Shown here: piece after piece, positions 25,564-53,181 of the stretch | Layout: each line of letters begins with the position of its first letter | How positions within the stretch are numbered: position 1 is the first letter of the stretch | DNA from: Brevibacterium sp. 'Marine' | GTDB taxonomy: Bacteria; Actinomycetota; Actinomycetes; Actinomycetales; Brevibacteriaceae | NCBI RefSeq assembly: GCF_012844365.1 | Contig: NZ_CP051626.1 | Span: forward strand, 620,001 to 684,000 | Length of the DNA: 64,000 bases | Direction: 5' to 3' | Position numbers and translations under genes: made by a program | The notes under the pieces: model-generated | The model's input: only the letters and a program-made list of their open reading frames with translations | Databases searched by the model: none | Told to the model about the DNA's origin: nothing

Positions 25564-25747
25564 AGTCGTTCCTTGGTTGGGTTCCGAGAGGAGTGGGCGC
25601 TCTGACTGTACCAATGTTGCTCCACGTTTGATCGAAAGAAACGTAACGGGTAGTTAACGAACTGCGATTAGATGCGCTTGGTACCGAATCGTTTCCGTTC
25701 GTTTCGGCTCAGATGTTTTAGGGAGTCAGTGGGGCGGCTGCGATTAC

Positions 25748-27927: not shown

Positions 27928-29187
27928 TCAGCCCCACACGCCCCGTGTGTCGTGGACGATCTTCTGCGCGAGCAGCGAAGCATCCAAGTTGATGAACTCG
28001 TTGTGATCGACCAGCAGGAGAACGATGTCGGCCTGCTCGACCGCGGTTTCGGTCTCGGCCAGGGTCACATTCTCGCGAGACTCCAACTCTGCAGGAAGCT
28101 CGTCGATGTTCGGCTCGACGGCGAGAATCGTCGCTTCAGGCAGCTCTTCGGCAAGACGGTTGACGATCTGACGAGCGGGGCTCTCACGCAGGTCATCGAT
28201 ATTGGGTTTGAATGCCAATCCGAGCGTCGCGATCTTCGCCTCGTTGATGCGCTTCGCCTGAGGGATGAGCTTGTCCAAGACGAATCCGGGCTTGGAGTCG
28301 TTCACTTCGCGGGCAGTCTTGATGAGTGATGACTGCTCTGGCGCAGTGGCGACAATGAACCACGGGTCCACGGCAATGCAATGGCCACCGACACCGGGGC
28401 CCGGCTGCAGAATGTTGACACGAGGGTGGTGGTTGGCCAGTTCGATGAGTTCCCAGACGTTGATGTCGAGACCATCGGCGATCATCGACAGTTCATTGGC
28501 GAAGGCGATGTTGACGTCGCGGTAGGCATTCTCTGTCAGCTTGGACAGCTCGGCCGTGCGCGCATCGGTCATGAGGAACTCGCCCTCACAGAACAGCTGG
28601 TAGAGGTCGCGGGCCCGCTCACCGGCATTTCCGTTGAGCGTGCCGACGATGCGGTCGTTCGTCCGCAGCTCAATCATGATGCGGCCGGGCAGGACGCGTT
28701 CGGGGCAGTGAGCGAAGTAGATCGTCTTGGACGTGCCTTCATCAAGCGTCAGATCTGGGCGCTGCGACAGAATCGTGTCGGCCAGGTATTCGGTTGCGCC
28801 GGGAGGCGAAGTCGACTCGAGGATGACGAGCTCATTGCCCTCAAGCAGCGGCGCGATCTGTTTACCGGCGGTCCCGATGTAGGAGAGGTCTGGTTTGTGC
28901 CCATCCTTGAACGGCGTGGGCACGGCGACGATGTAATTGTCGGCGTGTGGGGTCTCAGTCGTGGCTTTCAGGTATCCTTGTGAGACAACACCAGCCACTG
29001 TTGTCGACATATCGGGCTCGACGAACGGGACTTCGCCCTGGTTGATGAGATCGACAGCTTTCTGGTTGATATCGACGCCGACGACGTTCGCTCCAGAGCT
29101 AGCCAGCACGGCCGCAGTAGGGAGTCCAATATAGCCGAGTCCGATGACGGCGACCGAAGGCCGGTTACGCTCGGGAGTAGGGGTCAT
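27928..29187 (-). CDS. wecC: UDP-N-acetyl-D-mannosamine dehydrogenase
   Basis: 419 residues. NAD fold VAVIGLGYIGLPTAAVLASSG; central domain HCPERVLPGRIMIEL and ELSKLTENAYRDVNIAFANEL; catalytic Cys in GPGVGGHCIAVDPWF; C-terminal lobe LGLAFKPNIDDLRESPA. It oxidises UDP-ManNAc to UDP-ManNAcA. The divergent wecB supplies UDP-ManNAc, so the two make the uronic acid donor of teichuronic-type or enterobacterial-common-antigen-like glycans. The ATG at 29187 has AGAGAAGAGCT upstream; a longer start at 29235 lacks family similarity. Confidence 0.92.
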   Translation of the reverse strand: MTPTPERNRPSVAVIGLGYIGLPTAAVLASSGANVVGVDINQKAVDLINQGEVPFVEPDMSTTVAGVVSQGYLKATTETPHADNYIVAVPTPFKDGHKPDLSYIGTAGKQIAPLLEGNELVILESTSPPGATEYLADTILSQRPDLTLDEGTSKTIYFAHCPERVLPGRIMIELRTNDRIVGTLNGNAGERARDLYQLFCEGEFLMTDARTAELSKLTENAYRDVNIAFANELSMIADGLDINVWELIELANHHPRVNILQPGPGVGGHCIAVDPWFIVATAPEQSSLIKTAREVNDSKPGFVLDKLIPQAKRINEAKIATLGLAFKPNIDDLRESPARQIVNRLAEELPEATILAVEPNIDELPAELESRENVTLAETETAVEQADIVLLLVDHNEFINLDASLLAQKIVHDTRGVWG

Positions 29188-29536
29188 AGCTCTTCTCTCT
29201 GGGTTGTAGCGTCGGCCATAGGTCGCGACGGGCATCTAGTGTCGGCGACCGTCACTCTCCGTGGCACACAACAAATGAAATGGTATTGGATAACCACACG
29301 ACCGCGAAACGATCTTCGGTGATAACCTGAGCGTGTGATGTGGAACACCCGGTCAATTAAGGATCAGTGAATTTTCTACGCACTTCGATAATTTAAGGGA
29401 AAACCACTGTCGAAATGTGGTTGAATCTTGTGGAAACTATAGGATTTCTCATGCATTCTGGCGGGTCCGGCCATGAGTCAACGGTCGGCCCGCTATTTAC
29501 ATTTGGAGCAAGTTTTCAATTGACGAAGGAGCCGTA
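29188..29536. promoter_or_regulatory. Divergent wecC/wecB control region
   Basis: 349 bases without a gene, noticeably AT-richer than the flanking genes, so it should hold promoters for both directions. I see no convincing palindrome or riboswitch fold; a partial pair AACCAC/GTGGTT around 29382-29406 (ACCACTGTCGAAATGTGGT) could form a small hairpin in the wecB leader. Confidence 0.4.
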
Positions 29537-30679
29537 TTGAGCGCTGGCAAGTCAGGTATCCCCCCGAAGGTCATGGTTGTGTATGGAACCAGGCCAGAGG
29601 CGATCAAGGTGGCCCCGGTGATTAAGGCTCTTGAAGCGGATCCGAATCTTGAACCGATCGTCGTCGTCACTGCTCAGCATCGTGAGATGCTCGACCAGGT
29701 CAATCAGGTGTTCGAAATCGAACCCGATGTGGACCTCAATCTCATGGCTCACGGACAGACTCTCAATACCATCGCGGGCAGCGTCATTAGCAAGATCGAC
29801 GAAGTACTTGCCGACCACGAACCAGACGCCGTCGTAGTCCAAGGCGATACGACGACGGTGATGGGTGCCGCGATCGCGGCCTTCAACCGGGAGATTCCAG
29901 TTGTCCATCTCGAAGCAGGATTGCGCAGCGGAGACATCAATTCGCCGTTCCCCGAAGAGGCCAATCGGAAGATCGTCTCCCAGATCGCTCGCGTGCATCT
30001 CGCACCGACTATGGTCTCTCGGAGCAATCTGCTCGCGGACGGGGTCCCTGATGAGAATATCCACGTCATCGGCAATACGGTCATCGACGCTCTGCAGTGG
30101 GCCGTTGAGCGCCCGGTCGAGTTCAGTGTTCCTGAGCTTCAGGCGCTGGAGTCTGATGAGCGCCGAGTGCTGCTGGTAACCACTCACCGCCGGGAGAACC
30201 TTGGCGACAACATGGTGAACATTGGCAAAGCCATGCGAAACCTGGCCACAAACTATCCCGATCTGCTCATCATTTGGCCTGCGCACAAGAACCCCAAGGT
30301 CCGCGCGTCGATCGCTCCTCAGATCGAAGACCTCGACAATGTGATCTCAATCGAGCCCGTTGAGTACGGCGAGTTCTCGCACCTCATCAACGCCTCCGAC
30401 ATCGTGCTTACAGACTCGGGAGGAATCCAGGAAGAAGCCCCCAGCCTGGGCAAGCCGGTTCTGGTTCTCCGAGAAAACACGGAACGCCCCGAAGCTGTGG
30501 ATGCAGGGACGGTGAAGTTGATCGGTACTGCAACCGAGAAGATCATCTCCGAGGTTTCACGACTCCTCGATGACAAGAAGGCCTACCGGGACATGGCCAA
30601 TGCTGTGAATCCCTACGGTGACGGCCATTCAGCCGGTCGCAGCGTCGATATTCTCAACGACCTTCTCGGAGACAGCTGA
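29537..30679 (+). CDS. wecB: UDP-N-acetylglucosamine 2-epimerase (non-hydrolysing)
   Basis: 380 residues. VMVVYGTRPEAIKVAPVI, VVQGDTTTVMGAA, HLEAGLRSGDINSPFPEEANR and LTDSGGIQEEAPSLGKPVLVLRENTERPEA are the family blocks. It interconverts UDP-GlcNAc and UDP-ManNAc. Initiation is at TTG 29537 with GAAGGAG seven bases upstream; the next ATG (29573) would cut into the conserved first strand. It ends eight bases before the convergent glycosyltransferase gene. Confidence 0.93.
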   Translation: MSAGKSGIPPKVMVVYGTRPEAIKVAPVIKALEADPNLEPIVVVTAQHREMLDQVNQVFEIEPDVDLNLMAHGQTLNTIAGSVISKIDEVLADHEPDAVVVQGDTTTVMGAAIAAFNREIPVVHLEAGLRSGDINSPFPEEANRKIVSQIARVHLAPTMVSRSNLLADGVPDENIHVIGNTVIDALQWAVERPVEFSVPELQALESDERRVLLVTTHRRENLGDNMVNIGKAMRNLATNYPDLLIIWPAHKNPKVRASIAPQIEDLDNVISIEPVEYGEFSHLINASDIVLTDSGGIQEEAPSLGKPVLVLRENTERPEAVDAGTVKLIGTATEKIISEVSRLLDDKKAYRDMANAVNPYGDGHSAGRSVDILNDLLGDS

Positions 30680-30687
30680 GCCTTCGG

Positions 30688-32571
30688 TCAGAAGCAGTAG
30701 TGTCCACGGCTGAATCCGAAGCTGTGGACGTTACTGTTGGCCAACAGCAGATCGTCGTCGACATTCCACGTATGACTATGCGAGTCACGAATTTGGACGA
30801 AGTTGAAACGGTCTGCAGAGTAGATCCGTGCTCCGTCGGAGACGAGTCGCCGCTGCAGGTCGGTATCTTCGCCCAAAGTGCGGTCAGCGAATGGGAACCG
30901 TTGGAACAGCTCTCTGCTCCCCATCAGGGTGGGGCCCATGACAAGATCGGTGAAACGGTGCTCGCGTTCGGGGAACCGGCACATAACGATATCGCGGTTG
31001 CGCAGGTGAAGGTAGTGAGCCTGTTTGCCGACGAGGTCCGCATTTGAAAAGCGCAGAGCTGCGAGCTGGTCCGTCAGATAGTGCTCACCGTAGACGTCGT
31101 CATCATCCATCTTGGCGATGACGTCGCCGGATGCCGCTTCGATACCGCGGTTAAGGCACGCGCCCAGGGAATCCGAGCCCGGGGCCTCGAGCAATATCAG
31201 GTTTTCGATCCCCAGTTCGGTTGCATAATTCAGCATCTCCGGCGATGAAACGAACCCATGCTGGACGATGATGAGCTCTCGATTCTCAATATTCTGTGCG
31301 GCGTGTGTCTCAAGGACGTTGCTGAGGTGTTCCGGGCGATTCGTCGATACCACGACAGACATGGAACGAGGAATTGGATCGCTGTACTCGACCCCAACGG
31401 AGTCCATGATCGTCATCGCGCGATGAGTGTAGGTGTGTTCGTTCCAGATGCGCCGTTGCGCGAGATGTACCGTGCGGTCTCGAAGTTCGCCGCTTCTCAC
31501 ATATGCCCTGAGGATAAGTTCGGCCTCTTCTTGCGTCTCAGGCTGAGGAAGCTCTGAAAGTGGGAAGAACCGCTTCGTCGCTTCACTGGGGCTCGAGATG
31601 ACCGGAGTCCCGGCGGCAGTGATCTCGAAAATGCGCCTCGCGCACATGCTCGGCGAATCGACTACCGAGTTCACATTGAGGAATGCCTTGTAGTTCTTGT
31701 AGGCCGTCAGAAGGTTTCGGTAAGGCAGAGACCCGACGACTCTTTCGGCCAGAGTGCCGGGAAATTGATAGCGCTCATCGTCGCCGAGGAAGCGGGAGAA
31801 GATCTCAAGCCCGTGCTCCATCCGAGGGGACACTTTATCTGCCGCTCCCAAGAGCAGGTCCATCTGAGCCCGGCGCTCGGGGAATTTATGAGTGAAGTAC
31901 ATTCCCGCGAATGCGATATCGCGTGCGGCGTAATTGTGCGCAGGTCGGACGGGAGAATGAATCGCGGGTTGAGCGGCGAAAGCTAAGGGAGCGATGCGGT
32001 CATGTCCGAGATGTTCCCGGTACTGATGGACAAGTCGCACATCGCTGGTGAAGACGACATCGAACAGCTTGGCCAGCGGAAGGAAATCGTCGAAATGGGG
32101 AGGATCTTCCTTGTTCCAGAACACTGTTGGGATTTTGCGATGACGACACTCTGCCAGCAGTTCGATGACCTCGGGACTTGGGCCTGTCGTGCCGGTGAGC
32201 TTGAACTTCCAGTCCCCACCGTTGCCGTTCCACGCTGATTCGATAAAGACGAAGTCGACCGAGTCCAGCTGCGATGTCCATCCATCGCGTTTCAGTGGGA
32301 CAGTCGCCCATTCGTAACCGAAGCTCTCCGCTGAGAACTCGTCGAGGATGGTGCCGACTCTGAGATCGTCGAAGACAGGCCGACGATCGGACTTCGGAGC
32401 TGCAGGAAACGCCTCTAACAGATTGTCCGCAGTGAGCTGGTCGTTCGTCCGTCCATCGGCAACGCCTTGGTGAAGATTCCGACGGCGCCTCCACTTCAAG
32501 AATTGAGCTGGGCCGCCGTGGCGCAGATGCCAGAGACCGGTCCGCAATGTGCGAAGAGGAGTTTGAGGCAC
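30688..32571 (-). CDS. Two-module glycosyltransferase: CgeB-like domain plus GT2
   Basis: 627 residues. Residues ~70-390 form a CgeB/DUF3880-like module (VDFVFIESAWNGNGGDW, IPTVFWNKEDPPHFDDF, AFLNVNSVVDSPSMCARRIFEITAAGTPVISS). Residues ~400-600 are a GT-A, family-2-like module: SMSVVVSTNRPEHL, AKMDDDDVYGEHYL (metal-binding Asp cluster), and GEDTDLQRR as probable catalytic region. The first module reappears inside the 1520-residue protein at 42.2 kb. It probably adds two residues of the glycan or glycosylates in the cytoplasm. Its start is preceded by AAAGGATCCGACTGTGCCTCAA, with no strong Shine-Dalgarno close by. Confidence 0.85.
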   Translation of the reverse strand: MPQTPLRTLRTGLWHLRHGGPAQFLKWRRRRNLHQGVADGRTNDQLTADNLLEAFPAAPKSDRRPVFDDLRVGTILDEFSAESFGYEWATVPLKRDGWTSQLDSVDFVFIESAWNGNGGDWKFKLTGTTGPSPEVIELLAECRHRKIPTVFWNKEDPPHFDDFLPLAKLFDVVFTSDVRLVHQYREHLGHDRIAPLAFAAQPAIHSPVRPAHNYAARDIAFAGMYFTHKFPERRAQMDLLLGAADKVSPRMEHGLEIFSRFLGDDERYQFPGTLAERVVGSLPYRNLLTAYKNYKAFLNVNSVVDSPSMCARRIFEITAAGTPVISSPSEATKRFFPLSELPQPETQEEAELILRAYVRSGELRDRTVHLAQRRIWNEHTYTHRAMTIMDSVGVEYSDPIPRSMSVVVSTNRPEHLSNVLETHAAQNIENRELIIVQHGFVSSPEMLNYATELGIENLILLEAPGSDSLGACLNRGIEAASGDVIAKMDDDDVYGEHYLTDQLAALRFSNADLVGKQAHYLHLRNRDIVMCRFPEREHRFTDLVMGPTLMGSRELFQRFPFADRTLGEDTDLQRRLVSDGARIYSADRFNFVQIRDSHSHTWNVDDDLLLANSNVHSFGFSRGHYCF

Positions 32572-32856: not shown

Positions 32857-34833
32857 GTGGGAAGCAACACAGGGCCCATTCCCTCACGGACCCCAATGAG
32901 ACGGCACGGCAGAGCCATGGCGCTGTCACTCATCGACGGTCTCGTCTTCGCGTTCCTCGTCGTATCGATGACACTCGTGAGGTACGACTTCCATGCATCT
33001 CTCGTCAACGTGCCGGGAATGCTCGTCTGTTCGGCGGTTGGTCTGATCGTCTTTCTCATCGGCGGGCCTCTGGCAATCTACCGCGGTCGCTACCGACGTG
33101 GTTCGACCGATCAGTTCGCCGCAATCGTGGGAACGGTTGCTCTGGGTGTCGGCATCATGTGGGTGGCCGAATTTACCTTCGCCAATCGACTGCTCATCCC
33201 GACCAGCGTCCCCATTACGGCGGGAGCGCTCATGGTCGTGGTCAAGAGCCTCGAGAATTGGATTCGTCGCAACTTGAGGCAACGCAGTCTCACCACGTCC
33301 GGTGCATCCCGGCCCACGATCGTCGTCGGCGCGGGAAACCAGGGCATGCTCGCTCTCGATATGATCGCTCAGGACACACACAACGAATTCGTCGCTGTCG
33401 GCATCCTCGACGACGACCCTGCCAAGCGGCATCTTCGCTACAACGGAATCCGCGTGCTCGGACCGATCGCCGACATCGCCACCCATGTCGATCGCACCGG
33501 AGCTGGGGCCGTCATCATTGCGATCGCTGACCTGCCGCCCGAAGAGCTCTCCCGTATCGCGTCGAATCTCGAATCCCGGCCAGTCGAGATCAAGATCATG
33601 CCGAAACTCTCGGACTCCGCGTTGGCACGTCCCGAGCCTGACGCCCATGACGTCGCCGACCTGCGTCATCGCAGCTTCCGCGATGTCAGCCTCGAAGACC
33701 TCATCGGACGCAAACCAATCTCGACGAATATCGACGACATCGCCTCGGCGATCACCGGAAAGGTAGTCCTCGTCACCGGTGCAGGCGGCTCCATCGGCTC
33801 ACAATTGTGCCGTCAGGTCGCACGGTTCGATCCGGCCCGACTCATTATGACCGACCGGGACGAATCCGGCCTGCACGCCACTGAGCTCGGTCTCGAGGGG
33901 TCAGCCCTTCTGACCAGTGATGAACTCGTCCTCGGAGACCTGCGAGATCCGGCATTCATCGATGCCCTCGTCGCCGAGGCGAAGCCGGACATCATCTTCC
34001 ACGCCGCGGCTCTCAAGCACCTGACCTTCCTCGAGCGTTTCCCGGAACAGGCAGTGCGCACGAATGTCGGTGCCAGCCTTGACCTGCTCAATGCAGCGGT
34101 GGCTCATGACGTCGATGCCTTCGTCCACATCTCCACCGACAAAGCCGCCGGTGCGACCTCAGTGCTGGGGCGGACGAAGTTCTCCATCGAACGGGCGATC
34201 GCCTCTGTGGCCGCGGCGACCGGCCGACGTTATATGTCAGTGCGATTCGGCAATGTTCTCGGTTCCCGAGGATCCGTGCTCGAGACCTTTGTGGCTCAGG
34301 TGGCGGCCGGTGATCCTGTCACAGTCACCGACCCGGAGGTCACTCGATACTTCATGACCGCCGATGAGGCCTGTGAACTCGTCCTTCAGGCCGCAGCAAT
34401 CGGTGGCCCCGGAGAGACCTTGGTCCTCGACATGGGCGAACCGATCCGCATCGATGACCTCGCCAAGCGAGTGATCGCGCTGTCGGGGCGCAGTGATGCG
34501 CAGATCGTCTACACGGGACTGCGGCCGGGGGAGAAACTCACCGAGGCTCTGCTGTCGCCCGGAGAGGTCGACAGCCGACCCACCCATCCGCTGATCACTC
34601 AGGTGCCGATCACTCCGATCGATCTGGAGAAACTCGGTGCCCTGGTCGCCGAATCACGTGACCCACAGGTCTTCACTCACAGGTCGGGCCTCGAAGAGCA
34701 CCTGACGCGTCTCCTCGACTCCGAGACGGCACCGGCCACCGGTGACGCGACGGAGGCCATTGAGACGGCAGCGACAACGTCAAGAGCCCCCGAGCCAGGC
34801 GCAGACCCCCATGACACCGGAGTCGGCCTCTGA
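32857..34833 (+). CDS. FlaA1/CapD-type nucleotide-sugar 4,6-dehydratase, membrane-anchored
   Basis: 658 residues. Four N-terminal membrane helices (about 22-135), a first Rossmann domain beginning PTIVVGAGNQGMLALDMIA, then the catalytic SDR domain: VVLVTGAGGSIGSQLCRQV, FHAAALKHLTFLERFPEQA, HISTDKAAGATSVLGRTK and VRFGNVLGSRGSVLETF. Family members make 4-keto-6-deoxy UDP-HexNAc for amino- or deoxy-sugars. Translation starts at GTG 32857 behind GAGGGAAAAGAGG; the stop overlaps the next start. The C-terminal 40 residues are Ala/Thr/Glu-rich and beyond the family core. Confidence 0.88.
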   Translation: MGSNTGPIPSRTPMRRHGRAMALSLIDGLVFAFLVVSMTLVRYDFHASLVNVPGMLVCSAVGLIVFLIGGPLAIYRGRYRRGSTDQFAAIVGTVALGVGIMWVAEFTFANRLLIPTSVPITAGALMVVVKSLENWIRRNLRQRSLTTSGASRPTIVVGAGNQGMLALDMIAQDTHNEFVAVGILDDDPAKRHLRYNGIRVLGPIADIATHVDRTGAGAVIIAIADLPPEELSRIASNLESRPVEIKIMPKLSDSALARPEPDAHDVADLRHRSFRDVSLEDLIGRKPISTNIDDIASAITGKVVLVTGAGGSIGSQLCRQVARFDPARLIMTDRDESGLHATELGLEGSALLTSDELVLGDLRDPAFIDALVAEAKPDIIFHAAALKHLTFLERFPEQAVRTNVGASLDLLNAAVAHDVDAFVHISTDKAAGATSVLGRTKFSIERAIASVAAATGRRYMSVRFGNVLGSRGSVLETFVAQVAAGDPVTVTDPEVTRYFMTADEACELVLQAAAIGGPGETLVLDMGEPIRIDDLAKRVIALSGRSDAQIVYTGLRPGEKLTEALLSPGEVDSRPTHPLITQVPITPIDLEKLGALVAESRDPQVFTHRSGLEEHLTRLLDSETAPATGDATEAIETAATTSRAPEPGADPHDTGVGL

Positions 34834-35870
34834 TGGCTCTGCAGTCGCTGGTGATCCTGGTAGTGGCCGCGGTGGTCACGGTTCTCAGCGCCCTCATCGC
34901 CTTTCCGCTGCTGCGTCGAGCGGGGATCGTCGATGTCCCCTCTCATCGCTCCTCGCATACGCTGTCGACCGTACGCGGCGGGGGAATCGCCATCGGCTGC
35001 GGCATCACCGTGGCCACGATTCTGGCCATGGTGTGGACCGTCAGCGAAGACGGTGTCTTCGGCCTCGGCGGGGTCCTCCTTCCGGTCGGTTTCCTGGTCC
35101 TGACCTGGTGCTATTCGGCCATCGGGATGAGCGACGATCTCGACTCGCTGCGCCCCGCCGGGCGGCTGATCGGACAGGTGATCTTGGCTCTGCTGTTCAG
35201 CGCGATCATCGCCATGTTCTCAACACAGGGAATCGCTCACGTCATCGCCTTCGCGGTCATCGGCGTGACCACTGTCAACGCCGTGAACTTCGTCGACGGA
35301 CTCAACGGCTATGTCACCGAGTGGACCATCGTCACCGCTGGATGGTTCGCCTTCGTCGGTTCCTGGGAAGGAGAGAACGACATTGCACTACTTGCTCTGG
35401 CGCTGGCCGGCGCTGCTGTCGGGTTCCTCCCGTTCAACCTCGGTCGGGCCAAGGCGTTCCTCGGAGACACGGGCAGCTACGGGATCGGAGCGGCCGTCTT
35501 CGCTCTCGCGGTCTGGCTGTTTGTCCAAGGCGTCCCGATCGTCGTCATCATCGCACCGATGATCTTCGTCTTCTTCGACGTCGGACTCACTTTGGTCCTA
35601 CGGCTCTTCCGGGGAGAGAATATTCTCTTGCCTCATCGTGAACATATCTACCAGCGGATCCAGCAGGCGGGCTGGCCACACAGCTCCGTTTCGCTCTTCC
35701 ACGCCGCATTGAGCGTCCTCGCTTGCATAATGGCCGTCCCGACTCTCATCAGCGGAAATACGGCGACAACCTACCCGGCCCATGTGTTCTGGGTCGCGTT
35801 GCTCGCCCTCTATGCGCTGTTGCCGCTTTGGTTGCGGCGCCGGGCGCTGAAGGAGGTGACGACCGCATGA
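34833..35870 (+). CDS. WecA/MraY-like polyprenyl-phosphate sugar-1-phosphate transferase
   Basis: 345 residues with about ten membrane helices. Catalytic motifs: HRSSHTLSTVRGGGIAI, the Asp pair in SDDLDSLRPAGRL, NAVNFVDGLNGY, FLGDTGSYGIG and PHREHIYQR. It transfers a HexNAc-1-phosphate to undecaprenyl phosphate and so starts the lipid-linked glycan. Start and stop overlap with both neighbours by four bases, placing it in one operon with the dehydratase and the following glycosyltransferase. Confidence 0.9.
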   Translation: MALQSLVILVVAAVVTVLSALIAFPLLRRAGIVDVPSHRSSHTLSTVRGGGIAIGCGITVATILAMVWTVSEDGVFGLGGVLLPVGFLVLTWCYSAIGMSDDLDSLRPAGRLIGQVILALLFSAIIAMFSTQGIAHVIAFAVIGVTTVNAVNFVDGLNGYVTEWTIVTAGWFAFVGSWEGENDIALLALALAGAAVGFLPFNLGRAKAFLGDTGSYGIGAAVFALAVWLFVQGVPIVVIIAPMIFVFFDVGLTLVLRLFRGENILLPHREHIYQRIQQAGWPHSSVSLFHAALSVLACIMAVPTLISGNTATTYPAHVFWVALLALYALLPLWLRRRALKEVTTA

Positions 35871-37126
35871 AGATCCTTCTGCTCAGCCACTATTACTGGC
35901 CCGAGGTCGGCGCTCCGCAACGACGGTGGGCGACTCTCGTCAGTCATTTCGTTCGCCAGGGACACCAAGTAGTTGTTGCAGCACCCCACCCGCATTACCC
36001 GCACAGCAGACGGGACGAGTTCTTCGGATCCGCCGTCGGCCGCTTCCGCACTCGTGTGGACGCGAAGCTCGGTGGAACATGGGAGCTCGGCGAACTGGGG
36101 GAAAGGATCATTCGCGTTCCATACCTGCACAGTGGGTCTTCGATGGCTCGGCAGCTGCTCGACCAAGGAGTCGCCTCTGCCGGTGCGGTCAATGCGATCA
36201 TCCGCCGGATGGGCGGACCTTACGCACCCGACGTCGTGATCTCGACGACCCCTGCTCTGCCGTTCCTCTTTGCGGGGGATGCCGTTGCCAGAGCACTGCG
36301 TGTGCCTCATATCGCCGAGGTGCGTGATGTCTGGCCTGACCTCATCAGCGACCTGTCGCTGGTGAAGAACGCGGTCGGGAAGTATCTTCCTCGTGCGGCG
36401 ACTGCTTATCTTGAGGAGAAAGTTCTACCCGGCTTGCTCACGCTAGTGCAACGTCGCGCATCTGCGGTGGTCGTGACGACGGAAAGTTTCCGCTATCTTT
36501 TGGAACGGAGAGGAATAAGGTCTGAAGTTGTTCGCAGCGGTGTCGGACAGTCGGAGATCGACCAGCTTCCCCACCGGTGCACCGTGGCCGACTGCGACAG
36601 GAAGCTGCTCTACGTCGGTACCGTTGGACGCTCACAGGACCTTTCCTCGGCGATCGCTGCGGCTTCTCGAGTCCCCGGAATCAAGCTGCGCATCGTCGGC
36701 GACGGCGCCGACAGAGCAAATCTAGAGACACTAGCCCGCACACTTGGCGCGCCAGTTGAGTTCTTCGAACAGACCACAGGTCAGGCGCTTGCCGAGCATT
36801 GGGAATGGGCCGATGTGGGGCTCGTCAGCCTCGGCGATGTCCCCGCCCATGCACTCACAGTTCCATCGAAGCTCTATTCGCTCATGGCACGCAGAGTGCC
36901 GATTCTCGGCATCGTAGCGGGGGAGGCCGCCGAGATCATCAGTGAGAACCGTGCTGGCGTCGTTGCCAGACCAGGAGACGTGGATTCGATCGTCACGGCG
37001 CTGCAAGCCTTGGTCCAAGGAGTCAAAAGCCCCGATTCGGTGGGGCATGAATGGGTGGTCAACCACGCGTCCGTCGATGTCATGGGTGCTGAGTACGATC
37101 GGATCCTCGAGCGGGTGAGGCCATGA
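35867..37126 (+). CDS. Glycosyltransferase family 4 (WbuB-like)
   Basis: 419 residues of GT-B fold. MKILLLSHYYWPEVGAPQRRW is the usual WbuB-type opening; HIAEVRDVWPDLI and the donor-site region GLVSLGDVPAHALTVPSKLYSLMARRVPILGIV are family-typical. AAGGAGGTGA lies before the ATG at 35867, which overlaps the previous stop. As the first transferase after the WecA-like step it probably adds the second sugar of the repeat unit. Confidence 0.9.
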   Translation: MKILLLSHYYWPEVGAPQRRWATLVSHFVRQGHQVVVAAPHPHYPHSRRDEFFGSAVGRFRTRVDAKLGGTWELGELGERIIRVPYLHSGSSMARQLLDQGVASAGAVNAIIRRMGGPYAPDVVISTTPALPFLFAGDAVARALRVPHIAEVRDVWPDLISDLSLVKNAVGKYLPRAATAYLEEKVLPGLLTLVQRRASAVVVTTESFRYLLERRGIRSEVVRSGVGQSEIDQLPHRCTVADCDRKLLYVGTVGRSQDLSSAIAAASRVPGIKLRIVGDGADRANLETLARTLGAPVEFFEQTTGQALAEHWEWADVGLVSLGDVPAHALTVPSKLYSLMARRVPILGIVAGEAAEIISENRAGVVARPGDVDSIVTALQALVQGVKSPDSVGHEWVVNHASVDVMGAEYDRILERVRP

Positions 37127-38862
37127 ATCTCGCATTTCTTGCCAAGCAGATTGCCAATGGGGCTATCACGATGTCAGGCCACCTCTATGAAGACCGCGTA
37201 TTCTTCTCGATGCAGTTGGCACGCAGACTCCCGAAATCGGCATCGAGAATGGCCGGCCGACTGGTCGGAAACGTACCCGGTGTAGCCGCAGAGGCTGCCT
37301 CGGCGTGGTTGTTGGGCCAGGAGCTGCGAGCCAGGACAATCATCACGGTAGCCAAAGATAGGCAGCCGTCCCTACTGCTCGGAGAGATCGCGCTCAACCT
37401 CGGAATGCTTGATACTGCGACACGTATCGCAGGCTCCCTTGCATCCGCGGCCTCGCTGCGTTCCCGTATCCTGTGGACAGAGGGCAATCTCGACAAAGCG
37501 ATCGCCGTCCTTCCGGACAGCCGCCGTAGGCGACGCCTCAGCGAAGAGCGGCGGTCGATGTCCCCAGGATGGTGGCCGGAAACGGCCGCTCACCTCATCG
37601 CACGACCAGCCCGCCACGTGAGCGAGGGGCCCGCAGCGTCACTGCACGTTCTGACGAACTCGCTGCCGCATACGCGATCAGGTTACGCCTACCGCAGTCA
37701 TCTCATTCTTTCCACTCTCAGCGACGCAGGGCACCAGGTCGCCGCTGTGACTCGCCCATCTTTTCCCGTGACGATCGGTCGCTTGAGTCGCGGCAAGGTT
37801 GAGGTCGTTGACGGAATCGACTATTTGCGGAATGTGCCGCTTCGTCCTTCCACTACACCAACTGCGCGTCTAGTAGACCAGGCAGCCTGGATCGCAGACC
37901 GCGCCCTCGCACGCCAAGCCGACGTTCTCCACACCACGACCCACTACGTCAACGGATTGGCGACCGGAGCTGCGGCCAGGGCCATCGGACTGCCCTGGGT
38001 ATACGAAGTCCGAGGGGTTCTCGAAGAGACCTGGGCCGCGGCAGGCACCACCTCTGCTGACCGTGCAGCACGCCGAGAGAGCCAACGTTTTGCCCTCATG
38101 CGGGCGAAGGAGATCGAGGTTGCCTCGGCGGCCGACGCCGTCATCACCCTCGGCGAGACCATGCGCGAGCATCTCATCGCAGGGGGAGTACCCGCCGACT
38201 CGATCATGCTCATCCCAAACTCGATCTCAGAGGCCGTCGTTGACGCTGATACCACCCAACCAACTTCTCACGTGAGGGCCGGGCTTGGGCTGCCGACAGG
38301 AGGCTTCTGGGTTGGTACCGCTGCGTCAATCGTCGGCTATGAAGGACTTGACGATTTAGTTGACGCGGTTCGTATCTCTAGGGCGGAAGGGGTTGATATA
38401 CGATTGCTGATCGCGGGTGACGGAGTTGCACTTCCTGAGCTGCGGGAACGTGCCGTTGATCTCGGCGACCACGCGGTCTTCACAGGTAGAGTCTCCCAGT
38501 CGCAAGCTATTCAATACCAGCTTGCGATGGATGCGGTCGTTGTGCCCCGGAAAGACCAGCCTGTATGCAGACTGGTGACGCCCATTAAGCCAATTGAAGC
38601 CATGGGGTTGGCACGACCAGTAGTCATTTCTGATCTGCCGGCACTCCGTGAGCTCGTGCCATCGACAGCAGGACTGAAAATTGCCAGCGAAGATCCGCAT
38701 ACGTTGGCGAGTGCACTATCGCAGTTGGCCAAGGACGAGGACCTGTGCTCACGTCTTGGGGCTTTTGGGCGCCAACATGCACTAGCGACCCGAAGGTGGA
38801 AAAATATCGGAATGCGATATGGGAAACTGTATTCTCAACTAATGGAAACCGGTGTGAAGTGA
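37123..38862 (+). CDS. Glycosyltransferase family 4 with N-terminal helical extension
   Basis: 579 residues. The first ~165 residues are helical and rich in Ala, Arg and Leu, with no match I recognise. The GT-B part (about 172-575) begins LHVLTNSLPHTRSGYAYRSH and includes LPWVYEVRGVLEETWA, AGDGVALPELRERA, VVPRKDQPVCRLVTPIKPIEAMG. It is clearly paralogous to the GT4 module of the 1520-residue protein (shared VYEVRG, VGYEGLD and VTP-KP-E blocks). It overlaps both neighbours by four bases. Confidence 0.87.
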   Translation: MNLAFLAKQIANGAITMSGHLYEDRVFFSMQLARRLPKSASRMAGRLVGNVPGVAAEAASAWLLGQELRARTIITVAKDRQPSLLLGEIALNLGMLDTATRIAGSLASAASLRSRILWTEGNLDKAIAVLPDSRRRRRLSEERRSMSPGWWPETAAHLIARPARHVSEGPAASLHVLTNSLPHTRSGYAYRSHLILSTLSDAGHQVAAVTRPSFPVTIGRLSRGKVEVVDGIDYLRNVPLRPSTTPTARLVDQAAWIADRALARQADVLHTTTHYVNGLATGAAARAIGLPWVYEVRGVLEETWAAAGTTSADRAARRESQRFALMRAKEIEVASAADAVITLGETMREHLIAGGVPADSIMLIPNSISEAVVDADTTQPTSHVRAGLGLPTGGFWVGTAASIVGYEGLDDLVDAVRISRAEGVDIRLLIAGDGVALPELRERAVDLGDHAVFTGRVSQSQAIQYQLAMDAVVVPRKDQPVCRLVTPIKPIEAMGLARPVVISDLPALRELVPSTAGLKIASEDPHTLASALSQLAKDEDLCSRLGAFGRQHALATRRWKNIGMRYGKLYSQLMETGVK

Positions 38863-39743
38863 CTACAACAAATCCACTGGGGCTGACCTCCATGCGATCG
38901 GTCCCAAGCGAGGGACTCGTCCCTGTTGGTAAGCGAGCCAGTCTGAAGCACTATTTGGCGAGCTTATGGGATCGCAGACATTTCATAGTTGCTGAGTCGC
39001 GTGCGAAGATGAGCGGTTCTACGCGAAAGAACCTCCTCGGCTATGGATGGCTATTCCTTAATCCGATGCTGTCAGTACTGGCATACTCGTTCATCTTCGG
39101 TTTCATTTTGAACACTGCCAGGGGGGTGGAGAACTTCCTCGGCTTCCTGGTGATCGGCGTATTCTTCTTCCAGTACACACTGAAATGCATGACAGGTGGT
39201 GCCGGCGCAATCCGGTCTGGGTCCGCTATGATCAAGGCCTTTCAATTTCCCAGGGCAGCATTGCCTATTTCGATAGTCGTTCGGAACCTGCTCGATTTCG
39301 TTCCGACCCTGGCTGTGATGGTCATCGTGCTTATCGTCGTACCTCCTGCGGAAACGATCACCTGGCGTGTCATACTCATCATTCCTCTTGTTTTATTGCA
39401 GACTATCTTCAATGTTGGCCTTGCATGTTTCATGGCCAGGTTTGGGCACCGAATTCCCGACCTCAGTAACATTACGTCAATCATCGGCCGATTCTGGCTG
39501 TATGGGTCCGGAGTATTCTTCGTAATTGATGAGAAACTCGCTGACAAACCAACACTGCTGGCAGTCATGCATGCGAACCCTATGTATTCGGTACTTGAGC
39601 TGAGTCGCAATTGCATCCTCTATGGCGTCGACTCACCGTTATGGATGTGGGCCTCAGTTGTATTGTGGGCATTTGGACTCCTTTTATTCGGTTTCCTGTA
39701 TTTCTGGAGAGGGGAGGAGAGCTATGGTCGCCACCGAGCTTGA
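38859..39743 (+). CDS. Second polysaccharide ABC exporter permease (Wzm type)
   Basis: 294 residues, about six helices, with the same plan as the permease at 2.5 kb (ESRAKMSGSTRKNLLGYGWLFLNPMLSVLAY; PMYSVLELSRNCIL). I start it at GTG 38859, which overlaps the preceding stop as GTGA; an ATG at 38892 is an alternative. From here on the sequence becomes more AT-rich. The ATPase gene starts inside its 3' end, so the exporter is assembled from coupled translation. It is the likely exporter of the glycan made by this locus. Confidence 0.88.
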   Translation: MTTTNPLGLTSMRSVPSEGLVPVGKRASLKHYLASLWDRRHFIVAESRAKMSGSTRKNLLGYGWLFLNPMLSVLAYSFIFGFILNTARGVENFLGFLVIGVFFFQYTLKCMTGGAGAIRSGSAMIKAFQFPRAALPISIVVRNLLDFVPTLAVMVIVLIVVPPAETITWRVILIIPLVLLQTIFNVGLACFMARFGHRIPDLSNITSIIGRFWLYGSGVFFVIDEKLADKPTLLAVMHANPMYSVLELSRNCILYGVDSPLWMWASVVLWAFGLLLFGFLYFWRGEESYGRHRA

Positions 39744-41103
39744 AGCTCCGAATATCGTTGCCGAAAACGTACAGGTTCGATATACCGTTGGAACTCGAGA
39801 CCCTGGTCAGCGGTCGCGCGGTATACAACGCCTTGCAGATATTGCGTTGGGACGTCAGGGGCGGACGACAGTCCGCGCTCTTAGAGGCGTGAACTTCGTC
39901 GCTCGCGAAGGAGAGATGGTAGGAATCGTCGGAGCCAACGGTTCAGGCAAATCTACATTACTGAGAAATGTAGCGGGTGTTGAACAACCGGATCGAGGAC
40001 GGATCCTGGTGCGGTACCAGCCGCTGCTCCTCGGTGTCTCGGCGGCTTTGCAACCGTCTCTGTCTGGAAGTGAAAACGTGAGATTGGGATGCCTGGCAAT
40101 GGGCCTGACACCTGACGAGGCCACCGAAGCTTTCGACTATGTCGTCGACCTTTCGGCGCTAGGGCCGGCCATTCATCGGCCGATGGGGACCTATTCTTCC
40201 GGAATGGGGTCTCGCTTGAGGTTTGCCATCGCGTTGGCCGCCCGCCCCAAGATCCTCCTCATCGACGAAGCGTTGTCTACTGGTGACGCGACGTTTGCCG
40301 AACGGAGCGAACGAGCAATGGATGGGCTTCTTGCAGAGGCCGGAACCGTGCTGTTGGTCAACCATGCCGCCAAGGTGATTCAGGAACTTTGTACCCGAGC
40401 AGTTTGGATCCATCGTGGAGAGATCATCATGGACGGCCCGGCAGAATCAGTTGCGGAGAAATATCGATGGTGGGCGTGGAATGTCGCACAAGGTAAGCAG
40501 GAAGTCTCTGACAAGCTCCTACACGACGTGGTCAGCAACGCAGTCAAGGAAGAGTTAAATGTCCTTGAACCTGAACTCGTCAATAATCCCGTACCGCGGC
40601 ATGCCGCCCGCCGGGCAAATAATCGAGGAAAGATAAAACAAAGTACGCCGGCGGCGCGACATGTCCAACGGCGTGAACAAATGGATCCTGTAGAGGACGC
40701 TGAGATTCCACGGTTAGCGACTGCAGAGTCCCAAGTCTGGCCGGTGGAATTGGAAAAGCCACTGCAGCAGGCAAAGTTTCCTGTGCTTCCAAAGCCTGTT
40801 TCCCAGGTCGTCGGTTCTAGGTCACAGCACGAGCCCCCGGCTTTAAAATTGCGACCCAGCGGCAAGAGAATTATCCTCAGGGCTGAAAATCCTGATGATC
40901 GTGCGTCCTCAGTTGCTGCGAAAGGAGACCTTACCGGGCGTCGCCTTGCGTCCCGGGCGCGTGAGATCGCAGAACAGAGATATCAGGACCGGCTTCAGGC
41001 ACGCGCGAAGAATGACGAAGGCGCGGCTAGGCCGGAACGCTTGACTGAGGAATCCGCACAGTCAGCCGTTTCCCCAGAATCGACAAGAGATTCTGTGCAA
41101 TGA
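39724..41103 (+). CDS. Second polysaccharide ABC exporter ATPase (Wzt type) with long charged tail
   Basis: 459 residues. ATPase domain to about residue 250: Walker A GANGSGKST at 70-78, signature YSSGMGSRLRFA, Walker B ILLIDEAL. The remaining ~205 residues are rich in Arg, Gln, Glu and Pro, with short motifs such as RLASRAREIAEQRYQDRLQARA, and look disordered or coiled. This tail is absent from the first exporter ATPase. In known Wzt proteins a C-terminal domain can read the glycan end; here the tail does not look like that beta-sandwich, so its role is open. GGGGAGGAGAG precedes the ATG at 39724. Confidence 0.87.
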   Translation: MVATELEAPNIVAENVQVRYTVGTRDPGQRSRGIQRLADIALGRQGRTTVRALRGVNFVAREGEMVGIVGANGSGKSTLLRNVAGVEQPDRGRILVRYQPLLLGVSAALQPSLSGSENVRLGCLAMGLTPDEATEAFDYVVDLSALGPAIHRPMGTYSSGMGSRLRFAIALAARPKILLIDEALSTGDATFAERSERAMDGLLAEAGTVLLVNHAAKVIQELCTRAVWIHRGEIIMDGPAESVAEKYRWWAWNVAQGKQEVSDKLLHDVVSNAVKEELNVLEPELVNNPVPRHAARRANNRGKIKQSTPAARHVQRREQMDPVEDAEIPRLATAESQVWPVELEKPLQQAKFPVLPKPVSQVVGSRSQHEPPALKLRPSGKRIILRAENPDDRASSVAAKGDLTGRRLASRAREIAEQRYQDRLQARAKNDEGAARPERLTEESAQSAVSPESTRDSVQ

Positions 41104-42236: not shown

Positions 42237-45200
42237 ATGACTATTCATTCGGACGAGCACCGATCTACTGAAATTCTATTCAAACAACGATCCTCTGAAT
42301 TGCTTTCTGATCCTGACGAACTTGTTCGCAAATTCGAAGAATTGGCGGTTCGCGAGGGCGAATACATAACTAAAATTGAGAAGCTCGAAGAAGAGCTGAA
42401 AGCGGTAAATCAGTTTGCATTCGAAAAGAAAAGCGTACTTTCTGAGCAGACGAAAGCCCTTGGAAGTGCCAGGGCTTCGTTGGAGGCATATCGGGATGAG
42501 AACAAGCGACTCAAAGAGGACTTGAAACGCGTTCGCGGATCTAGCTCTTTGGCGCTTGGAAAGGCGCTTCTCTCGCCGATTCATTCGGTGAAGAAGCTGT
42601 TCGAAAGCGAGGAAAAGCGGCCCGATAGACCTAGCTCAGCTACGTCAACACCTACCGAGTCTACGAAACCGTCGCAGGCTAAGTCGCCAGACAATATAGG
42701 CAAAACGCGCGCGCTTGCTGAGATAGAAATGCCCGAATCTCACGCGTCTGCTGTGTTTTCGGTGGGGCGGAATGGAGAGACAGACCAGGATGGCCGTCTG
42801 GCTAAGCTAGCGCAATCGTTTAACGAAACCCGAAGCGCGATTGATCTTGCGAAGCTCTTGACTTACCAGTGGTATGTATGTGGCATGGTGTCCGAACCCG
42901 CCCGAGTGCTCGCCCGGAACAACAAAGTCCGTGAAGCTCTTGATACGAAGACCAGTATCTTGGCTGCACGGATAGTGGGAGCTGCCAACATGAGTGAGGC
43001 TCAAGAACTGATCCCTGCTCGAGCGAAAGGTCCGGTGTATACCCCCGAACGCGAACGCGTGATGTATTGCGCCCATTCGACTCCGATGTTCAACTCGAAT
43101 GGCTATTCGACACGGACCAGGGGGGTGGTAGCCGGTCTTGCGCAAGCTGGAATCGATGTGACGGTGGTCGCCCGCGCCGGGTACCCGTGGGACTCTGCAG
43201 TAGATACAGTAGTACCAAATGAGACTCGTTATGTTTCTGAACTAGACGACGTCCGATATGTACATCTGCCTGGACCCAACCTCAATAATTATCCACTTGA
43301 CAGATATACGATTCAGGCAGCGGACTCGCTAGTGCGCGAAGCGAAGCTTTTGCGTCCATCGATTATCCACGCAGCATCTAATTTCCGCAATGCGCTTCCG
43401 GCACTAATCGCCGCTCGCCGTCTCGGGCTTCCGTTCGTATATGAGGTCAGGGGACTATGGGAGGTCACTGAGGCTTCTAATAAAGAGGGTTGGGATGCTA
43501 CTGAGCGATATAGTCTCATGGCAAACCTCGAGACGCTTGTGGCGACAGAAGCTGATGCGATCTTGGCGATCACTCAGGAAGTCGCTGATGAGCTGATTGC
43601 TCGAGGCGTCACCGCGACCAAAATCAAGATTGCTCCAAATTCAGTGGATTCGAACTCATTCCTTCCGCTTCCTGTTGACGCGGAGTATGCCAAGAAGAGA
43701 AACATTCGAACGGACGTCCCAACCATCGGTTTCGCTGGGAGTCTAGTTGAGTACGAAGGTTTGGACACCCTGTTGGAAGCGGGCAAGATTCTTGACGAGC
43801 ATGATCGAGAGTTCCAAATCGTGATTGCCGGATCTGGCAGCTACGAGGCTGAATTGCGCAAGAAGTGCGACGACGAAAGAATTCGGAACGTCGCATTCAC
43901 TGGACGAGTGCCCATCGCTGAGATGCGTAGATTGTACAGTTTGTTCGACATCATGCCATGCCCCCGAAAATCGTTGCCAGTTACAGAAATGGTGTCTCCA
44001 CTCAAGCCGCTTGAATCCTTCGCTTCCAGTAAGGCAGTAGTTCTCTCAGACGTGTCTCCACATCGAATTTTGGCTGGAAAAAACGAGGAGCGGGCGTTGC
44101 TCTTTCCTGCGGGCAACGCCGAGGCATTGGCGGCGGTACTGGAACGGCTCATAGACGATCATGAACTAACAGAGGAGCTCGGCCGGAGAGGGCGGCGCTG
44201 GGTACGATCAAGTCGCAGTTGGACGAGTCTAGGACTGAACATCCGAGAGTGGTACCGCGAAGCACGTGACCACTACGGTAATGCGATAGATATCGAGTGT
44301 AGGTCTCTGGATCAGTTGAAGGTCGGAGTCATTGCCGATGAATTCACCCGGAAGACTCTTGCAGGGTCCGTCAACGCAGTGCCGCTCGGTCGACGCACAT
44401 GGAAAAACCAACTTTCCGAAGTCAAGGTCGACGCGGTATTTATCGAATCGGCTTGGGAAGGCAACGAAGGTGAATGGCATCGCGGGGTCGGCTATTACGG
44501 TGACGATGAGAATAGGGATCTTTGCGACTTAATTTCCTATTGCGTCGCCCGCAGCATTCCGACGATTTTCTGGAATAAGGAAGACCCGGTTCATTTCAAT
44601 AGATTCCGTCGTACGGCCGCTCGATTTGACTTTGTATTCACTACGGACGCAAATATGGTGCCTCTCTACCTTTCCACGGAATGGGCAAGGACCAAAGTGG
44701 CCGCTTCATTACCATTCTATGCGCAACCGAAGATCCACAATCCTCTACCTGGCGAAATTCCTTATGACGAATCGGTAGCATACGCAGGGACGTATTACGG
44801 TGATCGGTACAAAGAGCGGTCGAAGACTTTGACCGCAATTCTGGCGGCGGCTCAGCCTTATGGGCTGAGTATTTATGATCGCCAACTGGCATTCGCGGAT
44901 TCTCCATACAGTTTTCCGCGGGAGTTCAAGGCGAACGTCAAAGGGGCTCTTCCCTATGACGCAGTTATCGATTCATATAAAGCCCATATTGCTCACTTGA
45001 ACGTCAATTCAGTTGTCGAATCGCCTTCGATGTACTCGCGTCGTTTAGTCGAGATTCCGGCAAGCGGTGGTGTGGTACTTTCCGGACCGGGCCGTGGCAT
45101 CATTGAAACATTTGGAACTACTATTCCGGCCATGAGCGACATGCAGGACTGGCGTGCCCTACTCCATTCGTGGACGACGGATCCAGTGGAGCGAATTGCA

Positions 45201-46799
45201 GAATCATGGATGCAGTACCGATCCGTAATGAGGGCACATACTGTGGACACCGAGCTCACGGTCATGTTCCGAATCGCTGGCATTCCGGTGGCGGGCCCCG
45301 CGCTTGATACCTACTCGATTGTGATTTCAAATGAGTCTGACGAAACAATCGATGATGTGATCGAATCACTGGTTAGCCAGTCAGTTCTTCCCCATACGGT
45401 GTTCGTAGGGTCAGATGTGGAACGAGTTCGCGAGTATTTCGCTGGTACTGCTGTCCTGGTACAAACCCTCGATAAGGTTGAGGCTACTGCCAGCGATTGG
45501 ATAGGTGTACTGTCGGGCCCAGTACCTCGTACTCATTTTGAGGATTTGCTGTACGCGGGGCGCTTCGGCAATTGGACTCGCATAACTGCTAAGCAAGCTA
45601 GCTGGACAGATCGTGGCTCAACAATCGCACGAAGAGTCAATCAGACCACTAGCAAGGAAGGATTGATCCGCACCTCAGAAGTGAATCTAACTAAGAGTTT
45701 ATACTCACAACTCTCGGTAACAACCGGCTCGATAATCGAATGGATAGTTCCAAGACTGAGACTGGAAGACGGCAATGCTGCTCCGGTGTGCACCGAGCAC
45801 TCAGCGACGGAGCTTACAGTTGTCGTAGCCAGTCATGACCTCAAGTTTGCCGACAATATTATTGACGAGCTGAGGAGCGCAGGCCACCGCGTACTCATCG
45901 ACAAATGGGAATCGCATACGTCTCATGACGAAGCTACATCGCGTCAATTGCTCGACCGCGCGGATGTGATCTTCTGCGAATGGGGACTTGGTAACGCAGT
46001 ATGGTATTCGAAGAACAAATTACCGCATCAGCGCCTAGTCATACGTGTCCATTCCCAAGAATTGCGACGCCCGTATTTACAAGAACTGACGATGGTTAAC
46101 GTCGATGCCTTCGTGTTTGTCGGAGAGCTAACCCGTCAAGCCGCTATCAGCGGACATAATATTCCGGCAAATAAAACGTTCGTGATTCCCAACTTCGTGG
46201 ACAACGATGGATTGAAGCAACCGAAGTATTCGAAGACTGAGAAGAATCTCGGCTTAGTTGGTATCGTTCCGAAGTCGAAACGTATGGACCGTGCTCTGGA
46301 TATTCTTGAGAAGCTGCTAGAAGTCGACACGGAATACCGACTGTTCGTCAAAGGGAAAGGGACAGGCGACTATCCGTGGCTGAAAAATCGACCGGACGAG
46401 ATAGAGTACTACGACGCTCAGTACGCTCGTGTAGAGAGCATCAATAGGAGATTTCCGGGCTCTGTTATCTTCGACAAGTTTTCATCAGATATGTCGGAGT
46501 GGTATAGGAAGATTGGCGCCGTCTTATCGGTCAGTGATTTCGAATCTTTTCACTACACCATCCCGGACGGAGCTGCGTCGGGCGCAGAACCATTCTGCTT
46601 GGCGTGGCCCGGTGCTGACCTCTTATATCCCGACGATTGGGTTTACGACAGTATAGATGATATTGTTTCTGCCATTAGTCAGCGGCAGCCCGGTAGTGAA
46701 GACGCTAACCGACAATTTGTATCGGCTTATTTTAATGGCCAGGAATCCACGGCGCTGCTCCTTAACATGATTGTGGGAGGAAGCTCTCCTCTGAAGTAA
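42237..46799 (+). CDS. Giant multi-module glycosyltransferase (GT4 + CgeB-like + GT2-like + GT4-like)
   Basis: 1520 residues. Residues ~30-105 are a coiled coil (EELAVREGEYITKIEKLEEEL onward), followed by a linker. A GT4 module spans about 275-685 (MFNSNGYSTRTRGVVAGL, LPFVYEVRGLWEVTEAS, VTEMVSPLKPLESFASSKAV). A CgeB-like module spans 694-1020 (VDAVFIESAWEGNEGEW, IPTIFWNKEDPVHFNRF, HLNVNSVVESPSMYSRRL). About 1025-1185 looks like a reduced GT2 fold (YSIVISNESDETIDDVIESL). About 1190-1510 is another GT-B-like module (IRVHSQELRRPYL, GLVGIVPKSKRMDRALDIL, SVSDFESFHYTIPDG). It may assemble several bonds of a repeat unit in one chain. Confidence 0.85.
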   Translation: MTIHSDEHRSTEILFKQRSSELLSDPDELVRKFEELAVREGEYITKIEKLEEELKAVNQFAFEKKSVLSEQTKALGSARASLEAYRDENKRLKEDLKRVRGSSSLALGKALLSPIHSVKKLFESEEKRPDRPSSATSTPTESTKPSQAKSPDNIGKTRALAEIEMPESHASAVFSVGRNGETDQDGRLAKLAQSFNETRSAIDLAKLLTYQWYVCGMVSEPARVLARNNKVREALDTKTSILAARIVGAANMSEAQELIPARAKGPVYTPERERVMYCAHSTPMFNSNGYSTRTRGVVAGLAQAGIDVTVVARAGYPWDSAVDTVVPNETRYVSELDDVRYVHLPGPNLNNYPLDRYTIQAADSLVREAKLLRPSIIHAASNFRNALPALIAARRLGLPFVYEVRGLWEVTEASNKEGWDATERYSLMANLETLVATEADAILAITQEVADELIARGVTATKIKIAPNSVDSNSFLPLPVDAEYAKKRNIRTDVPTIGFAGSLVEYEGLDTLLEAGKILDEHDREFQIVIAGSGSYEAELRKKCDDERIRNVAFTGRVPIAEMRRLYSLFDIMPCPRKSLPVTEMVSPLKPLESFASSKAVVLSDVSPHRILAGKNEERALLFPAGNAEALAAVLERLIDDHELTEELGRRGRRWVRSSRSWTSLGLNIREWYREARDHYGNAIDIECRSLDQLKVGVIADEFTRKTLAGSVNAVPLGRRTWKNQLSEVKVDAVFIESAWEGNEGEWHRGVGYYGDDENRDLCDLISYCVARSIPTIFWNKEDPVHFNRFRRTAARFDFVFTTDANMVPLYLSTEWARTKVAASLPFYAQPKIHNPLPGEIPYDESVAYAGTYYGDRYKERSKTLTAILAAAQPYGLSIYDRQLAFADSPYSFPREFKANVKGALPYDAVIDSYKAHIAHLNVNSVVESPSMYSRRLVEIPASGGVVLSGPGRGIIETFGTTIPAMSDMQDWRALLHSWTTDPVERIAESWMQYRSVMRAHTVDTELTVMFRIAGIPVAGPALDTYSIVISNESDETIDDVIESLVSQSVLPHTVFVGSDVERVREYFAGTAVLVQTLDKVEATASDWIGVLSGPVPRTHFEDLLYAGRFGNWTRITAKQASWTDRGSTIARRVNQTTSKEGLIRTSEVNLTKSLYSQLSVTTGSIIEWIVPRLRLEDGNAAPVCTEHSATELTVVVASHDLKFADNIIDELRSAGHRVLIDKWESHTSHDEATSRQLLDRADVIFCEWGLGNAVWYSKNKLPHQRLVIRVHSQELRRPYLQELTMVNVDAFVFVGELTRQAAISGHNIPANKTFVIPNFVDNDGLKQPKYSKTEKNLGLVGIVPKSKRMDRALDILEKLLEVDTEYRLFVKGKGTGDYPWLKNRPDEIEYYDAQYARVESINRRFPGSVIFDKFSSDMSEWYRKIGAVLSVSDFESFHYTIPDGAASGAEPFCLAWPGADLLYPDDWVYDSIDDIVSAISQRQPGSEDANRQFVSAYFNGQESTALLLNMIVGGSSPLK

Positions 46800-53010: not shown

Positions 53011-53181
53011 GTCCAAAGGATTCAGTGGATTCGGCTCTGGAGTTCGGCCCATCCGCTTGTTGGGTGGGTGGTTTAACGGTCGGAAGTTGTTCATGATGTG
53101 GCGCGCAAGGGAAAGCATGACGTAGGATCGCTGAAACGGCCGTGAAAGACTCGTATGCTTTAAGTGATAATCCGCATCTCA

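Follow-up and report, generated by a model that had tools for sequence, protein, structure and literature searches.

The gene at 42237-46799 encodes a real, well-formed multi-module glycosyltransferase with one dead module, an architecture that is widespread and apparently undescribed. The dead module, here called module 3, is a conserved pseudo-GT2, a remnant of GT-A fold that has lost its metal-binding Asp cluster. Because module 3 is a GT2 domain without its DXD cluster, three catalytic sites (GT4A, CgeB and GT4B) are expected in the chain and not four. A sequence-only reading of the same DNA had proposed four transferase-like units per chain; as folds all four are there, but as catalytic modules only three are expected.

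Modules of the giant and the genes around it

The DNA comes from Brevibacterium sp. 'Marine' (GCF_012844365.1, contig NZ_CP051626.1, positions 620,001-684,000 of the forward strand). All positions below are those of the window, by which we mean the whole stretch of 64,000 nucleotides that was analysed. The giant and its parts are as follows.

42237..46799, + strand: giant multi-module glycosyltransferase, 1520 aa (intact ORF with ATG start; full-length homologues in other genera)
42315..42548, + strand: coiled coil, residues about 27-104 (heptad periodicity; weak coiled-coil Pfam matches)
42555..42608, + strand: amphipathic helix, residues 107-124, LGKALLSPIHSVKKLFES (helical hydrophobic moment)
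43059..44303, + strand: GT4A module, residues 275-689 (Pfam PF13439/PF00534; TIGR04063-like; conserved residues)
44304..45302, + strand: CgeB-like GT-B module, residues 690-1022 (PF13524; conserved residues)
45303..45803, + strand: pseudo-GT2 module (module 3), residues 1023-1189, DXD lost (hhalign, fold, absent DDDD)
45804..46796, + strand: GT4B module, residues 1190-1520 (GT-B fold with high pLDDT; conserved residues)

Translation of the frame meets no internal stop, and the full-length homologues in other genera are 39-51% identical to the giant. Conservation was counted over 46 to 74 homologues per module. In GT4A, domains of GT4 type lie at residues 288-655 with scores exceeding the Pfam gathering scores (PF13439, E 1e-27; PF00534, E 1e-24); Pfam and NCBIfam, the latter with a TIGR04063-like GT4 enzyme, together place the GT4 part at about 280-675. 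K590, E593, R577 and Y506-E507-G508 are conserved in the alignment of homologues. The EX7E motif is incomplete: its second Glu (E593) is kept, along with K590, and the residue eight before E593 is Met or another non-Glu throughout the aligned TIGR04063-like group. The CgeB module matches PF13524 with 57.4 bits (cut-off 25), the best stretch being 896-1005, and its WNKEDP, N922, N924, R935, R936 and E939 are present in 100% of 68 homologues. For GT4B, the NCBIfam matches to GT4 are weak only (1277-1373); its predicted fold is GT-B, and GT4 structures top the Foldseek list. R1270, H1272, E1275, K1348, E1436 and H1439 occur in 100% of 74 homologues, K1348 and E1436 corresponding to the Lys and Glu that are conserved in GT4 active sites. 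The sequence-only reading had credited the giant with two further GT-like modules and a coiled coil, and these were recovered as the GT2 remnant and GT4B, by profile and fold, and as a heptad periodicity.

That periodicity (102.9 degrees over residues of about 27-104) is equalled by 0.05% of shuffles, and the weak Pfam matches come in addition to it. The helix at 107-124 has a hydrophobic moment within the top 0.3% of the protein's 18-mers and is proposed to be a membrane-surface anchor. Two other giants, L036:7506 (Auritidibacter) and L042:7488 (Micrococcus terreus), begin with two hydrophobic helices, judged by eye, where this giant has its coiled coil and amphipathic helix, and giant L037, judged by position, probably has the same start. 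The two-helix N-termini of L036 and L042 suggest that the N-terminus may serve as a membrane anchor.

The giant is part of a polysaccharide locus, which also encodes a 4,6-dehydratase-like protein and the following.

27928..29235, - strand: UDP-N-acetylmannosamine dehydrogenase, WecC (NF008286 equivalog, 578.6 bits, cut-off 459)
29537..30679, + strand: UDP-GlcNAc 2-epimerase, WecB (TIGR00236 equivalog, 467.5 bits, cut-off 210)
30688..32571, - strand: single CgeB-GT2 protein, its GT2 half with intact KMDDDD (BLASTP; PF00535; motif)
34833..35870, + strand: WecA/TagO-like lipid-phosphate sugar-1-P transferase (PF00953, E 3e-26)
37123..38862, + strand: single GT4 protein, GT4A paralogue in a separate clade (BLASTP; tree)
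38745..39743, + strand: ABC exporter permease, Wzm-like (NF050109 Wzm, E 5e-12, under its cut-off)
39622..41103, + strand: ABC exporter ATPase, TagH/Wzt-like (PRK13545 TagH, E 1e-49, under cut-off; ABC_tran above cut-off)

Between 38700 and 55700 GC3 drops from about 0.6-0.8 to about 0.5, and this block is probably an imported, variable part of the locus, judging from its composition. It holds, at 50354-52390, a second multi-module transferase, a protein of 678 residues whose single chain has two matches to GT2. Four further genes downstream of the giant, at 49903-50367, 52381-53010, 53164-54336 and 54465-55625, gave no NCBIfam matches; by eye the product of the 53164 gene is polysaccharide pyruvyltransferase-like, and the 54465 gene encodes SGGFDS, a PP-loop-like motif. 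Elsewhere in the window, at 23440-25614, a low-GC (0.488) gene for an AAA-type ATPase resembling an OLD-family protein lies amid high-GC genes.

A GT2 domain without its metal site

Residues 1025-1185 have no Pfam match above cut-off. The sequence-only reading had noticed that a clear Asp cluster is missing here and had suspected a non-catalytic module. Both suggestions are borne out by comparison with the 30688 protein and its relatives, in which a GT2 domain carrying K-M-D-D-D-D-x-Y-G-x-x-Y-L-x-D-Q comes after the CgeB domain. Module 3 and the GT2 half of the 30688 protein occupy the same place in the chain, after CgeB. Plain BLASTP between them is not significant (E 0.08, equalled by 3 of 300 shuffles), so profiles were needed: in hhalign, a profile built from the module 3 sequences of 17 giants aligns over 106 columns with the GT2 half found in CgeB-GT2 proteins (E 4.6e-5, with a probability of only 69%). 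The GT2-like core comprises residues of about 1023-1140. In it the segment YGxxYLxDQLxALxYSxADxVGK can still be recognised as RTHFEDLLYAGRFGNWTRI; the DDDD ahead of the segment is missing. When giant, operonic and active versions are aligned, Asp1103 is invariant and Gln1048 nearly so.

Structure prediction gives module 3 a GT-A fold, with TarS, TarP, SpsA and RmlT as top Foldseek/VIA-align matches (best Z 10.4). Confidence is mostly good for the first 120 residues and poor beyond about 1140. Since the alignment behind the model contains active GT2 relatives, the predicted fold does not count as evidence independent of the homology.

Motif scoring found the DXD/DDDD cluster in none of the 17 giants. 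The four aspartates are confined to actinobacterial single genes, where just two of the scorable ones lack them; none of the operonic CgeB proteins of Firmicutes and Proteobacteria has them, and the YGxxYLxDL part is mostly kept there. Four operonic sequences were scored as positive by the automatic DXD search for a bare DD; each of them lacks the four-Asp cluster. Two-gene systems have an X domain ahead of GT4B, and we also considered module 3 as a possible leftover of it; the profiles did not match over the module, and the X domain is itself of GT-B type.

Origin of the giant

Within the locus the giant has two evident paralogues, as the sequence-only reading had said. Its residues 275-690 align with the 37123 protein (BLASTP, 31% identity over 402 aa, E 6e-46), and the 30688 protein aligns through its N-terminal half with residues 690-1022 (36% over 340 aa, E 3e-57); GT4B is distant from the other GT4s of the locus (E 0.002). 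The giants cluster together in each of the three module trees, for GT4A, for CgeB (support 100/100) and for GT4B, with one split gene and one fragment falling among them. The split gene, in Arthrobacter sp. OVS8 (L043:7995-12426), consists of two overlapping frames that part between GT4A and CgeB, either through sequencing error or as a natural split. AU tests reject joining the giants' GT4A with 37123 (p 6e-37) and their CgeB with 30688 (p 6e-63). The GT4A modules of giants group instead with a Halomonas GT4A-CgeB fusion, and the GT4A of this giant is up to 58% identical to giants from other families.

Full-length giants are found in several actinobacterial families, for example in Arthrobacter, Pseudarthrobacter, Paeniglutamicibacter, Micrococcus terreus, Auritidibacter and Gulosibacter. 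Complete or nearly complete ones were present in 14 of 396 genomes of the order sample, and among the sampled genomes of its own genus a full-length giant occurs in this one alone. GC3 is 0.47-0.55 in every module of the giant, as against 0.62-0.66 for the single paralogues and more than 0.8 for genes upstream of the locus. Such uniformly low GC3, together with the absence from the rest of the sampled genus, indicates that the giant was acquired by horizontal transfer as one unit.

Its parts are likely to be genes that are neighbours in other bacteria, namely those for GT4A, CgeB-GT2 and GT4B. Genomes of Listeria, Halomonas, Pseudomonas, Paenibacillus and others have an X-GT4B gene immediately after one for CgeB-(pseudo)GT2, and fusions of other kinds exist: Halomonas has GT4A-CgeB (L045) and Sulfurovum has GT4A-X-GT4B (L048). 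The N-termini of L045, L051, L087, L072, L056 and L049 match no Pfam family. We suppose that such adjacent genes would have been fused once, long ago and elsewhere.

Could the giant have been assembled on the spot, by copying and joining the 37123 and 30688 genes? The sequence-only reading favoured such shuffling within the locus, and the 31% and 36% identities speak for it. Giants and single genes do usually occupy one locus, so the singles are not missing where the giant occurs. Nevertheless the trees and AU tests contradict local shuffling, giants of other families and, for GT4A, the Halomonas fusion are closer than the local paralogues, and the composition of the giant is unlike that of the single genes; we consider local assembly ruled out and give it practically no credence. 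The low GC3 and patchy distribution might also mean that the block is a decayed or silent island, which carries the giant along as a passenger that has no role at present. The intact frame of 4.5 kb and the retention of invariant residues in three modules make this very improbable.

ManNAcA and the possible function of the giant

Several observations connect the family with N-acetylmannosaminuronic acid (ManNAcA). Within the fetched 8-kb flanks a WecC homologue occurs at 49 of 59 CgeB/GT4B loci from several phyla; by NCBIfam these are UDP-ManNAc dehydrogenases in Actinobacteria and Proteobacteria, and the Firmicute enzymes score slightly below the ManNAc-dehydrogenase cut-off. Of 297 genomes of the order, 57 have CgeB, 61 have WecC and 55 have both (Fisher p 2e-50; 2e-18 when collapsed by genus), and WecC is present in all 11 giant genomes of that sample. 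The 37123 family shares 57 order genomes with WecC, a co-occurrence as tight as that of CgeB; hence within the order ManNAcA is tracked by the entire locus and not just by CgeB. A CgeB-specific role cannot be read from co-occurrence inside the order, where the two families are inseparable, and it is the wider phyla that point to the CgeB/GT4B pair. The only known family of ManNAcA transferases that we checked, GT26 (WecG/TagA), has no member in this genome. Where the giant is whole, most loci have ABC exporter genes close to it; at two loci of giants, L034 and L041, neither WecC nor an exporter is seen within 8 kb. Our literature search turned up nothing that treats ManNAcA transferases together with ABC exporters, and no paper describing a role of CgeB or PF13524 in ManNAcA polymers or assigning a donor to a CgeB-type enzyme.

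We suggest, with about an even chance of being right, that the giant, fused once and transferred as a unit, polymerises a wall glycan containing ManNAcA, in association with the membrane and coupled to the ABC exporter. Its substrates, order of action, polymerase role and membrane binding we infer as follows. The WecA-like enzyme (34833) would begin the glycan on undecaprenyl phosphate. The giant, oligomerised and kept at the membrane by its coiled coil and amphipathic helix, would add sugars in turn onto the growing end through GT4A, CgeB and GT4B. The CgeB module would most likely transfer ManNAcA from UDP-ManNAcA, the donor that WecB and WecC of the locus would make, although donor specificity is a reasoned guess that could go either way. 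Lying between CgeB and GT4B, residues 1023-1189 might serve as a scaffold or as a wedge that binds the acceptor. The product, an acidic cell-wall polysaccharide containing ManNAcA, would leave through the Wzm/Wzt-like exporter encoded just upstream of the giant.

The main rival to a polymerase is an enzyme that decorates or completes a repeat unit: the single GT4 and CgeB-GT2 proteins would make the backbone, and the giant would attach a fixed oligosaccharide to it, for instance two or three residues of a side chain. Genomes of the same genus have WecC, a single CgeB-GT2 and a single GT4 and no giant; decoration would explain why these congeners keep the rest of the locus. In several loci, moreover, the giant adjoins both single genes. 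What speaks against it is that in Firmicutes and Proteobacteria the CgeB/GT4B pair accompanies WecC, and sometimes an ABC exporter, in the manner of core enzymes and without the actinobacterial singles. We hold decoration to be possible yet doubtful. A different question is whether module 3 is dead at all or is a working, unusual, metal-independent GT2. Some GT-A enzymes function without DXD, and module 3 has retained the GT-A core with the two conserved residues Gln1048 and Asp1103. However, the DXD position is unconserved among giants, the part beyond the core is the poorly modelled one and the module falls short of the length of a GT2 domain, so that an active module 3 appears unlikely.

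Multi-active-site polymerases are a common bacterial route to surface glycans, and CgeB, which belongs to the same domain family (PF13524) as the CgeB module of the giant, is known from a spore-surface gene of Bacillus subtilis. ABC-exported O-antigens are built by coiled-coil proteins with several GT modules (Klebsiella O7 ORF6, WbbB of O12, WbdA/WbdD; PMC11231755). The giant is like them in having several GT modules per chain, a coiled coil and a Wzm/Wzt exporter in the locus (38745, 39622); it differs in its modules (GT4, CgeB-like, pseudo-GT2 and GT4B) and in belonging to an actinobacterial wall locus. Unlike WbbB, WbdD and O7 ORF6, it has no terminator on the chain, and its coiled coil is short and N-terminal, with only about 26 residues ahead. 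CgeB proteins with an N-terminal methyltransferase domain occur in Chelativorans (L055:5991-7991) and a planctomycete (L067:6321-7991), the latter continuing with coiled-coil-like sequence; these resemble a WbdD-type chain terminator with its molecular ruler.

Micrococcus luteus has a membrane-associated complex, the teichuronic acid synthetase (TUAS), whose glucosyl- and ManNAcA-transferase activities make a teichuronic acid of ManNAcA and glucose and whose subunits are of 54 and 52.5 kDa (PMC3005890). The setting is similar, as giants occur in Micrococcaceae, including Micrococcus terreus, and WecB and WecC are encoded in the giant's locus; the chain of 1520 residues is far larger than the TUAS subunits. 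The TagF-like capsule polymerase (PDB 8qoy; Bcs3, PMC10299916) also has several active sites in one chain, as proposed for the giant, and is the top Foldseek match to residues 681-1520 (E 1.6e-11, with TM-scores of only 0.24/0.20). No phosphotransferase module was recognised in the giant, in contrast to TagF-like polymerases, and there is no sign of common descent of the whole proteins.

Still more tentatively than the polymerase role itself, we propose that the CgeB-pseudo-GT2 pair is an unrecognised, multi-phylum family of UDP-ManNAcA-dependent polymerising transferases, in which the GT2 domain became a conserved non-catalytic scaffold and of which the actinobacterial giants may be the one-chain version. 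The giant ties a CgeB-type transferase to ManNAcA supply across several phyla, and shows a GT2 domain that has been held in place after the loss of its metal site. Two questions are thereby made testable: which enzyme transfers ManNAcA in actinobacterial wall polymers when WecG/TagA is lacking, and what role dead transferase domains may have in the assembly of glycans.
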